A stretch of DNA of 64,000 nt, taken from positions 1-64,000 of the forward strand of contig QBVD01000046.1 in NCBI GenBank assembly GCA_003058525.1, given 5' to 3'. The notes below the pieces were generated by a model that had not been told where the DNA came from, made no database searches, and saw only the letters and a program-made list of their open reading frames with translations. Positions 1 to 57,675 of this stretch are shown here, one piece after another; position 1 is the stretch's first letter, and each line of letters opens with the position of its first letter. This stretch comes from a gamma proteobacterium symbiont of Ctena orbiculata (lineage in GTDB: Bacteria > Pseudomonadota > Gammaproteobacteria > Chromatiales > Chromatiaceae). Made by a program: the position numbers and the translations under genes.

Positions 1-248
1 AATCGACTCTGCTGGAGCTGTTTTTTTACCCAGCAAGGCAGAATGAGCGAGGTTTAGCCGTGCTAAATGAGCGAATGATAACGCCGCTGGGTGGAAAAAC
101 AGCCCCAGCCCTTCGGGTTGTGCCTGAAAATGCGCCACTCGGCGTTGCTCGTCACTCATTTGGAATCACCAAACCTCACTCCTCGCGCCTTGTTTGGCGC
201 ATTTTCAGACACAACAGAGCCGATTGGATTAGTGTTAACAGGCCCTAA
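1..248. repeat. MITE-like structured element (left end outside window)
   Basis: Non-coding element made of two long hairpins. Hairpin B has arms at 11-34 and 86-109 (21 of 24 positions complementary) around a 51-nt core at 35-85. Hairpin A has arms at 118-140 and 192-214 around a 51-nt core at 141-191. The core of A read on the minus strand is homologous to the core of B read on the plus strand; both start AAGGC and end AACGCC and carry GAGYGAGGTTT and AAATGAGYGA. The right end (215-248) and left end (1-11) are inverted copies of AATCGRCTCTG, so the window begins inside the left terminal inverted repeat. Short open frames across it end in the repeat and look spurious. Confidence 0.8.
219..248 (-). 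repeat. Terminal repeat of the structured element (TAGGGCC family)
   Basis: Read on the minus strand this begins TTAGGGCCTGTTAACAC and continues through TAATCCAATCGGC. The same sequence recurs as solo copies at 4849-4881 and 39097-39129 and as partial copies at 8798-8815, 38182-38200 and 57649-57675. Here it is joined to the two-hairpin element, which suggests that the solo copies are end fragments or minimal derivatives of it. Confidence 0.8.
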
Positions 249-530: not shown

Positions 531-1211
531 ATGCCTTCAACCCATCGACACTGCTATGACTACCCCCACCCGGCGGTGACCACTGATGTTGTGTTGTTCA
601 CCATTCGCCAGGACGCCCTATCTGTACTGCTGATCCAGCGTGGCAATCCTCCGTGCCAGGGGATGTGGGCCCTTCCAGGGGGATTTCTGAATATCGACGA
701 AGACCTTGAGGCATGCGCCAAACGTGAATTGCTGGAAGAGACGGGGGTCGAGGGTGTCTATCTGGAACAGCTGTATACCTTCGGTGACCCAAAACGTGAT
801 CCACGGGAAAGGGTAATCAGTGTCACGTTTTATGCATTGAGCCAATCCGACCATCTGACGCCCAAGGCATCCAGCGATGCTGCGCTCACAGCATGGTTCG
901 CCATTAACCAGCTGCCGGAACTGGCCTTCGATCATGCCGATATTATTCAATTGGCATGCAAACGCTTAGTATCCAAGTTAGGCTACACCACCATCGCCTT
1001 TCAAATGCTGCCGAAATCCTTCACGCTCAGTCAACTGCAGTCGGTCTATGAGATATTGCTGAATGAAGACCTGGACAAGCGCAACTTCCGCAAGGGAATA
1101 CTTGCCCGTAACATCATCAAGGAGACAGGTGAATACTCCCGCATTGGAAATCACCGACCCGCTAAAACCTACCGGGTAATCAATCCATCCCAGGTCGAAA
1201 TTATAAAATAG
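531..1211 (+). CDS. Nudix-domain regulator/hydrolase of the NrtR type
   Basis: 226 residues. Residues about 15-145 form a Nudix domain with a complete Nudix box at 51-73 (G51, E57, R65-E66, E69-E70, G72), so hydrolase activity on ADP-ribose-like substrates may be retained. The C-terminal 80 residues (KSFTLSQLQSVYE, then LDKRNFRKGIL) look like the winged helix of NrtR, the Nudix-derived repressor of NAD metabolism that senses ADP-ribose. It lies 15 bases before nadA on the same strand, which supports a role in NAD synthesis control. Catalytic ADP-ribose pyrophosphatase is the alternative. Palindromes at 461-497 could be its operators. Confidence 0.8.
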   Translation: MPSTHRHCYDYPHPAVTTDVVLFTIRQDALSVLLIQRGNPPCQGMWALPGGFLNIDEDLEACAKRELLEETGVEGVYLEQLYTFGDPKRDPRERVISVTFYALSQSDHLTPKASSDAALTAWFAINQLPELAFDHADIIQLACKRLVSKLGYTTIAFQMLPKSFTLSQLQSVYEILLNEDLDKRNFRKGILARNIIKETGEYSRIGNHRPAKTYRVINPSQVEIIK

Positions 1212-1226
1212 AGAAATGAGAACCCA

Positions 1227-2291
1227 ATGAATTCCCAACCACTCAATCTTCCCAAGATCGTAGTCCCCGAGCACCCTCAATGGCTCCCTCTCAGCGACCA
1301 GGAGAAGCAGGCCATCAAGACCAGGATCAGCCGTAAGCTGGAACAACAAAACGCGGTATTGGTGGCTCACTACTACACCGACGCCGAACTGCAGGCCCTT
1401 GCCGAAGAAACCGGTGGTTGCGTTGCCGACTCCCTTGAGATGGCACGTTTCGGCACAGTTCAGTCAGCAGATACACTGGTTGTCTGCGGCGTCAGATTCA
1501 TGGGCGAAACATCGAAGATCCTGAACCCGGAAAAACGGGTCATCATGCCGGATCTCGGCGCCACCTGTTCCCTTGATGAGGGGTGCCCAGGCGATCAGTT
1601 CACCGCATTCTGCGATGCTCATCCAGACCATACCGTGGTCGTCTACGCTAATACCAGCGCCGAAGTGAAGGCCCGTTCGGACTGGGTGGTTACATCGGGC
1701 ATTGCATTACCGATCGTCAAGCACCTGGCCGAACAGGGTAAGAAAATTCTGTGGGGGCCGGATCGACACCTGGGCAGTTATGTACAGCGGGTCACGGGAG
1801 CCGAGATGTTGATGTGGCCCGGCTCATGTGTTGTTCATGAAGAATTCAAGGCGGTGGCACTGGAACGCATTCGGCGCCTGCACCCGGATGCAGCGGTATT
1901 GGTTCATCCTGAATCCCCTGAAAACGTAATTCAACAGGCTGACGTCATCGGCTCCACCACTGCCTTGATCAAAGCCGTATCGGAGATGGAGAACAAGGAG
2001 TTCATCGTTGCCACCGACGGTGGCATCTTCTATAAGATGCAGCAGATGGCGCCCGATAAGGTACTCATCGAAGCGCCTACCGCCGGTGAGGGAGCGACCT
2101 GTGTCAGCTGCGCCCACTGCCCCTGGATGGGTATGAACTCACTGCAGAACCTGGAACAGGTTCTCGATTCCGGCGGGAATGAAATTCACATTGATGAGGC
2201 GATCAGGGCACGCGCGGTAATCCCGATTAAGCGAATGCTCGACTTTGCCGCTCAACAGGGCATTGGAATGCAGGACAAAGGAAACGCTTGA
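1227..2291 (+). CDS. nadA: Quinolinate synthase NadA
   Basis: 354 residues, the usual length of the long NadA type. It condenses iminoaspartate with dihydroxyacetone phosphate to quinolinate, in the cytoplasm, for de novo NAD synthesis. The three [4Fe-4S] ligands expected from the E. coli enzyme correspond to C114 ([10 protein letters not shown]), C201 ([10 protein letters not shown]) and C298 (CVSCAHCPW). Other family signatures are [10 protein letters not shown] near residue 47 and [10 protein letters not shown] near 263. It directly follows the Nudix/NrtR-type gene and is probably cotranscribed and controlled by it. nadB and nadC are not in the window. Confidence 0.96.
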
Positions 2292-4848: not shown

Positions 4849-4881
4849 TAGGGCCTGTTAACACTAATCCAATCGGCCCTA
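4849..4881. repeat. 33-bp TAGGGCC...GGCCCTA mini-repeat
   Basis: Solo element with perfect 7-bp terminal inverted repeats (TAGGGCC and GGCCCTA) and a GTTAAC centre, differing from the copy at 39097-39129 by one base. It sits between two convergent genes, and its right end supplies the TAG stop of the minus-strand gene 4879-5793. Confidence 0.85.
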
Positions 4882-39096: not shown

Positions 39097-39129
39097 TAGG
39101 GCCTGTTAACACTCATCCAATCGGCCCTA
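39097..39129. repeat. 33-bp TAGGGCC...GGCCCTA mini-repeat
   Basis: Full copy with perfect 7-bp ends, one base different from 4849-4881. Like that copy it lies between convergent genes (flgN and the glycosyltransferase gene). Confidence 0.85.
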
Positions 39130-57648: not shown

Positions 57649-57675
57649 CCATTGGATTAGTGTGAACAGGCCCTA
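57649..57675 (-). repeat. Partial TAGGGCC-family repeat upstream of the peptidase gene
   Basis: On the minus strand TAGGGCCTGTTCACAC followed by TAATCCAATGG, a 27-base copy of the repeat end. It lies 9 bases before the isoaspartyl peptidase start and abuts its ribosome site. Confidence 0.75.

Follow-up and report, generated by a model that had tools for sequence, protein, structure and literature searches.

MITEs are usually viewed as internally deleted leftovers whose interior is irrelevant. The RU/ERIC repeats of enterobacteria and the Correia/NEMIS repeats are intergenic, palindromic and mobile, carry no gene and have RNA-like folds, and REP/REPIN sequences are GTAG-tagged palindromes of 20–40 bp that occur with TnpA-REP. 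MITEPsy1 of Pseudomonas syringae, which is 100 nt long with IS5-like ends of 18 nt, inserts at CTAG or YTAA with a 4-nt duplication and has been shown to transpose (PMC3189936). Sizes of 127, 168 and 103 bp are given for RU-1 to RU-3 (PMC2759123), and the R-family repeats of Pseudomonas fluorescens, some of which have the ends of insertion sequences, are intergenic and measure 50–352 bp (PMC2718517). In DNA, AGCGA tracts can pair through G-C and G-A pairs, as described for AGCGA-quadruplexes (PMC5442326).

The window examined here, i.e., the whole stretch of DNA that was analysed, covers the first 64 kb of contig C2; the source genome measures 4.74 Mb. Two homologous hairpins in inverted orientation were noted at its start in the initial annotation, and this observation was confirmed with two corrections. 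The features of the element and its relatives in the window are as follows.

1–247: contig-end copy of a 269-bp element, without 22 nt of its left end, which fall off the contig
1–10, plus strand: remainder of the left terminal inverted repeat, from the sequence and from complete copies elsewhere
11–109, plus strand: hairpin unit A, with outer arms 11–34/86–109 (repeat search and alignment)
35–85, plus strand: 51-nt core of unit A (AAGGC, core stem, apical stem, AAC, GCC)
45–50/69–74, plus strand: paired GAGCGA motifs in the core stem of unit A
53–58/62–67, plus strand: apical stem of unit A
109–117, plus strand: small CCCTTCGGG hairpin between units A and B
117–215, minus strand: hairpin unit B, inverted (repeat search and alignment)
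141–191, minus strand: 51-nt core of unit B
212–247, minus strand: right terminal inverted repeat, which starts TAGGGCCTGTTAACACTAATCCAATCGG on the minus strand
4849–4881, plus strand: 33-bp solo remnant, TAGGGCC...GGCCCTA, which the conspecific genome G030 also has, between identical near flanks (L459)
39097–39129, plus strand: 33-bp solo remnant
57658–57675, minus strand: end of a decayed copy that still has part of unit A

A repeat search recovered the outer arms of unit A as annotated (24 nt, 88% complementary, with 51 nt between them) and placed those of unit B at 117–137/195–215 (21 nt, 95% complementary), close to the 118–140/192–214 given earlier. The two cores aligned without gaps and agreed at 34 of 51 positions, as compared with 23 of 51 for the best of 2000 pairs of random 51-mers drawn from the window outside its first 300 bases. 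The apical stem, the flanking paired GAGYGA motifs and the lack of sequence relationship between the outer stems of the two units were likewise as first described. The two-hairpin layout stands, but the extent assigned to it does not, since this copy is cut by the start of the contig and full copies elsewhere in the genome measure 269 bp; nor is the layout unique, as many further copies are present in the source genome. By eye, the genes adjoining the element (window 600–2290) resemble one for a Nudix hydrolase/NrtR-type regulator and, after it, one for quinolinate synthase (nadA).

The reading that we prefer, with a probability of roughly 0.53, is that this sequence represents a DNA transposon some 269 bp long that is non-autonomous and is moved by IS5-type transposition in trans, that folds as a single strand on the lagging-strand template, and whose fold has a role in mobilisation. 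The parts of this reading differ in strength and are considered in turn.

Forty places in the source genome aligned to the query with no less than 97% identity and with at least 225 of its 260 bases covered; 12 of these had flanking sequence on both sides (L014, L015, L016, L018, L020 and L024–L030) while most of the others ran into contig ends, so that a single copy may have been counted twice and the real copies number fewer than 40. The end motif TAGGGCCTGTTAACACTA, allowing two mismatches, occurred 236 times in the genome as opposed to 0 times for the reversed control. Full copies start with TAGGGCCTG and finish with CAGGCCCTA, giving 269 bp of the form TAGGGCC...GGCCCTA. Longer forms of 295–297 and 323 bp contain one or two copies of a 27-nt hairpin module, and shorter forms of 231, 177, 172, 153 and 98 bp are without internal parts. 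The 27-nt module, CGCCCCGAAGGAAGTGCCCTTGGGGTG, lies within or beside unit B at L038, L041, L043–L045, L048 and L050. In common with MITEs, the element has terminal inverted repeats, is without a transposase gene (six open reading frames of 30–70 aa, none of transposase size, overlap the 269-bp copy at L034) and duplicates its target site, a single TA being present in empty sites.

Empty sites were sought by searching the joined flanks of ten insertions of the source genome in eight relatives and in the source genome itself. In the closed genome G030, the sites of L014 and L015 were uninterrupted, those of L025 and L027 were uninterrupted but with 12 or 16 extra bases, and those of L016, L024, L029 and L036 were split by an insert; the joined flanks of L018 and L020 gave no usable match in this genome. 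In G009, the sites of L014, L016, L024 and L029 were uninterrupted. The single TA was clean at the empty sites of L014, L016, L024, L025 and L029, and the junction bases differed at that of L015. Insertions thus differ between two genomes of one species. A pyrimidine preceded and a purine followed the element in all 28 two-ended copies inspected, which indicates YTAR targets. The copy at L014 adjoins a TAGGGCC...GGCCCTA sequence that resembles an older remnant. Mobility of the element is well supported by these results.

A search for elements with ends matching TAGGGCCTGTTAACAC, a check proposed in the initial annotation, found IS5-type insertion sequences, and the MITE thus has its ends in common with an autonomous element. 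All 19 terminal bases of an 809-bp IS5 element on an Enterobacter plasmid (L115) matched the MITE ends, and the ends of 828-bp elements from Pseudomonas (L118) and Polaromonas (L117) matched over 21 bases at 95% and over 27 bases at 89%, respectively. A second type of end, GGGTCTGTTGACG and its variants, was found on elements of 859–862 bp on L116, where the element is annotated as ISPa67-like, on L121 and on the viral contigs L111 and L112. The outermost stretches (first and last ~166 nt) of seven IS5 elements contained no hairpin core that could be recognised by eye. Nitrosospira plasmid L122 carries at 2502–2612 a 111-bp element with TAGGGCCTGTTAACAC ends and without hairpin units, apparently an internally deleted IS5. 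A link to IS630, suggested by eye from a transposase reading frame beside the Azotobacter copy, was dropped once the ends had matched IS5-type elements. Among phages, 19 records matched the element, only over 26–31 bases in capsid, tail-fibre or hypothetical genes; in viral contigs the element's own 22-mer end had 0 matches and the second type of end matched 10 stretches. Together with the copies and the empty sites, the matching IS5-type ends support the earlier description of a mobile, MITE-like repeat bounded by TAGGGCC, and its identity as a MITE with IS5-type ends is close to certain.

Both DUF4096 and DDE_Tnp_1 were recognised in the L118 and L121 proteins. The L118 protein had matches in 2 of 21 genomes of the genus, with related ends at loci of those genomes, and DUF4096 was present in 1 of the 21 and in neither the source genome nor G030; the transposase profiles PF13358 and PF01609 each gave 0 matches in the source genome. 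Among 369 genomes of the class, DUF4096, the sole family compared, was found in 19 of 110 genomes with the MITE and 40 of 259 without it (p=0.64). This lack of association suggests that the MITE outlasts resident transposases or that transient or unrecognised ones move it, and IS5-type transposases that come and go would be expected to act on the element in trans.

The element is widespread. A covariance model (R1) recognised units in 110 of the 369 class genomes searched, belonging to 84 of 271 genera, and in 106 of 398 genomes of the phylum (54 of 213 genera), samples that overlap and that, with stricter filters and at most 11 or 10 candidates scored per genome, record presence and not copy number. 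Of the 106, 67 lie outside the class, 50 of them under one family label. R1 matches were picked without reference to the 51-nt core and mostly span 89–93 nt. The core pattern itself occurred in 63 stretches of genome contigs, with carriers that include Azotobacter, Pseudomonas, Alcanivorax, Nitrococcus, Algicola, Gilvimarinus, Thiogranum, Halieaceae and Woeseiaceae, as well as Candidatus Thiodiazotropha and lucinid-symbiont assemblies, where 21 of 24 such stretches had the element's own end motif; the genus of the source genome is therefore probably Candidatus Thiodiazotropha. Absence from related genomes, which by the initial annotation would point to an accidental local duplication, was not seen, the same end motif being present in all 18 other genomes of the genus; none of 11 genomes from other genera had it. 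The Azotobacter element had no match in E. coli genomes.

Layout was nearly constant among 99 distinct two-unit elements, 44 from the genus (a set drawn up by hand) and 55 from outside it. The distance from the start of one unit to the start of the other was 105–107 nt in 53 of the 55 and 105–106 nt in 38 of the 44. All 44 elements of the genus paired unit A with unit B, and the 55 others comprised 36 A+B, 18 B+B and 1 A+A. A terminal repeat was detected at 23 of 30 places. When a simple scoring rule was used to place the boundaries, 20 of the 23 elements measured 267–273 bp and the others 277, 282 and 287 bp. Elements of 287–288 bp at L153 and L201 have an extra stretch within one unit near the AAC bulge. 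The ends differ among genera (e.g., GGGCCTGTTAACAC, GAGCCTGTCTGTGAATAAATC, GGGCGTGTCGTCATGAGA and GAACCTATCTCAGAATCC). Within one element the two outer arms were never alike (median identity 0.40, maximum 0.65 in the 99 elements) and the cores were alike (median 0.63).

The fold was derived from an alignment of 22 diverse units over 91 columns without gaps. At its base are a 20-pair outer stem of freely varying sequence, an AA bulge, GGC/GCC pairs and an AAC bulge, and above these an 11-position stem in which the G.A/A.G pairs keep their positions, a single bulged base, and an apical stem of six pairs with a five-base loop. Changes on both sides were found in 33 of 40 pairs, so that the compensatory changes whose lack, by the initial annotation, would have pointed to an accidental local duplication are present. 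Standard pairs made up 79.7% of cells as compared with 58.8% after shuffling, and the covariation score was 0.532, against 0.167 after shuffling and no more than 0.179 in slid versions. The A/B split, a single ancient divergence, accounts for part of this score, and the shuffles take no account of relatedness. Additional stems were contributed by copies from Halomonas, Azotobacter and Pseudomonas, and in some units the G.A stretch was swapped for plain pairs, as in Halomonas (GCAAAAC/GTTTTGC) and Azotobacter (GCGGGGC/GCCCCGC). Non-standard pairs of the model were 31-60 and 32-59 in 20 of 22 units and 35-56 in all 22. A terminator scan of L034 gave three sites, two of them within the element, against 0.6 expected. 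Comparison with Rfam found tRNA alone in the window and nothing above the gathering threshold in L034, L038, L102 or L103; four weak matches at E values up to 5 were all far below it. The fold itself is well supported, and its purpose is something that we infer.

Evidence for selection on the fold of one strand came from 142 non-redundant units. For the strand, gene-context and element-pair counts, units were taken from matching loci by the 51-nt core rule, so that core length is built in. Outer stems contained 149 G.T as opposed to 71 A.C and 108 G.A as opposed to 21 C.T; in the first five core-stem pairs the corresponding counts were 30 and 6, and 180 and 0, and core position 18-34 was G.T in 109 of the 142 units. 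Since A.C and C.T are G.T and G.A seen on the opposite strand, these counts argue for constraint on one strand in these stems. The GGC/GCC pairs were without asymmetry (G.T 19, A.C 24), the internal loop had 34 G.T and 58 A.C with 425 G.A and 3 C.T, and the apical stem had 11 C.T and 1 G.A among 710 cells. An excess of G.T over A.C in outer stems was seen for units A and B taken apart, in counts from a 129-pair set of overlapping loci with some places entered repeatedly (the pair figures above were instead taken from the 99 distinct elements), and for type B it was not significant at the middle redundancy cut (26 vs 18, p=0.29, among units with over 20 differences across the 91 positions). Strand-biased mutation is disfavoured because units A and B are inverted in the element. 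Selection on the fold of a single strand is thus supported statistically for the outer and lower core stems, with exceptions elsewhere. The initial annotation had proposed a selected RNA structure or protein site; the selected structure is borne out, but both the covariation and the asymmetry between strands in these stems speak against a protein site on double-stranded DNA as the sole explanation.

Asymmetry of this kind would also be expected of RNA. Read-through transcripts from either direction, each containing one sense hairpin, might be bound or processed by a host factor that insulates neighbouring genes or fixes transcript ends, which would make insertions tolerable; taken alone this is doubtful, and it was ranked almost as likely as the role in mobilisation. 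Tolerance of G.T over A.C in the outer and lower core stems agrees with it, as does the presence of one sense copy per strand whichever way the element inserts. By simple ORF calling, 14 of 40 elements lay in convergent gaps as compared with 26 of 129 controls and 6 of 40 in divergent gaps as compared with 39 of 129, a bias in gene context that avoidance of promoters predicts equally. Constant spacing and total length, however, would be needless for RNA hairpins that act independently, nothing in Rfam was above gathering, and the one footprint found in vivo, described below, points instead to folding of single-stranded DNA at replication.

It is improbable that the fold has no present function and that ancestry, templated correction within hairpins and the copying of a master's content at transposition suffice to keep the arms complementary. 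Such a process would explain why outer stems are nearly perfect though unrelated between units and genera and why parts of the structure are without strand asymmetry, and the deletion remnants do suggest that hairpins form. Correction would, however, erase the G.A positions, yet these are kept, and the gap-free core, the spacing of 105–107 nt and the AAGGC/AACGCC motifs are conserved across genera.

The remnants bear on folding at replication. Single ends were found in the source genome and its relatives, often as a 33-bp form, TAGGGCCTGTTAACACTAATCCAATNNGCCCTA, which is the product expected if a deletion joined the inner GGCCCT of the full element to its terminal GGCCCT. Leading strands are G-rich, and by the usual rule positive GC skew marks a fork that moves right. 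Unpaired ends followed GC skew in 78 of 95 cases from G002, G030 and G015 (Fisher p=1.5e-10), with 39 on the minus and 11 on the plus strand where skew was positive and 6 and 39, respectively, where it was negative; 17 were against the rule. These rows comprise exact matches on contigs C3 and C6 of G002 (60 of 67, without one-mismatch rows), all 94 rows of G030 and 56 of 77 of G015, and of 100 unpaired rows the 5 whose skew was unclear were left out. Rows scored as unpaired, of which 20 of 46 were inspected in G002, may include elements with a diverged other end, and one of those in G002 (L343) resembles the start of a longer element. For the 33-nt form ending in A, 25 of 30 followed the rule in the closed genomes G030 and G015 (11:3 and 2:14; p=6e-4). 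Two-ended elements in the same two genomes were without replication bias (22 vs 24 and one mixed among 47, p=1.0); this set covers 47 of 48 places, and without 5 of unclear skew the counts were 12, 9, 11 and 9 (p=1.0).

Palindromes delete preferentially on the lagging strand, and lagging-strand deletions caused by hairpins are known from plasmid experiments. On the lagging template of a fork moving rightward, the polymerase would meet the right end of the element first, stall at the base of the first hairpin, just past the inner repeat, and slip to the left end. Slippage of this kind would leave the right end as a minus-strand remnant, the form mostly seen where skew is positive, and leading-strand slippage would leave the opposite end; the sign expected for lagging-strand slippage was derived after the data had been seen. 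The pattern is the one that deletions caused by hairpins on the lagging template would be expected to produce, with slippage past them giving rise to one-ended remnants. It is most unlikely that the 33-bp remnants are instead small mobile elements that insert in one orientation to the fork and are uninformative on folding, since, though they end in TAGGGCC/GGCCCTA and lay between a pyrimidine and a purine in 12 clean examples inspected, their junction is the one that a deletion from the inner to the terminal GGCCCT repeat would give in a full element, two-ended elements with the same ends lack orientation bias, and inspected ends in G002 that are broken elsewhere in the element mostly follow the rule (L333 is an exception).

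Deletions provoked by folding are costly to the element, and the footprint is therefore a sign of folding and not of usefulness. A role in mobilisation is favoured on two grounds. Copies decay individually, so that across genera only traits that bear on movement or on immediate harm can stay the same, and not just the single hairpins but also the spacing and the total length hardly vary. More tentatively, the fold may be kept because it helps mobilisation, giving a compact interior with ends joined as a three-way junction when the element is single-stranded. Inverted, non-identical units give either strand one copy of sense polarity, and the differing outer stems of A and B may keep the element from becoming one long (269-bp) perfect palindrome. 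Complementarity of the outer stems could be maintained by templated mutation within hairpins and not by selection. The mobilisation reading is weakened by the absence of strand asymmetry in parts of the structure and by the A+B arrangement in only 36 of 55 elements outside the genus.

More broadly, and tentatively, at odds that we place just short of even, these elements may represent a phylum-wide MITE lineage with a two-hairpin, single-strand interior that is not derived from an insertion sequence, that has been re-capped repeatedly with IS5-type ends while its cores, 106-nt spacing and length of about 269 bp remained constant, and that folds on the lagging template in vivo. The interior is conserved across genera while the ends change, a sign that part of an element without genes is under selection. 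The remnants would in addition provide a natural, genome-wide record which suggests that hairpins fold and cause lagging-strand deletions in uncultured bacteria.

In agreement with the initial annotation, which knew of no described family with this layout, no description of the element was found in the main texts of open-licence papers by topic or by core strings; one of its end strings occurred in open-licence full texts, in an unrelated context only. REP/REPIN sequences are set apart from the element by size and ERIC by length. RU/ERIC and Correia/NEMIS repeats are set apart in length and in their known ends and layout. R-family repeats are distinguished by size, none near 269 bp being among the sizes listed for them. 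AGCGA-quadruplexes form a tetrahelix from four tracts, whereas in the present element two GAGYGA-like tracts face each other within a hairpin. MITEPsy1 is like the element in its IS5-like ends and too short for two 91-nt units. The closest relationship is to IS5-family insertion sequences with a DUF4096 + DDE transposase (L115–L118, 809–828 bp or ISPa67-like), which have the terminal 16–19 bp or close variants and CTAG-type surroundings in common with the MITE but carry the transposase gene that it is without.
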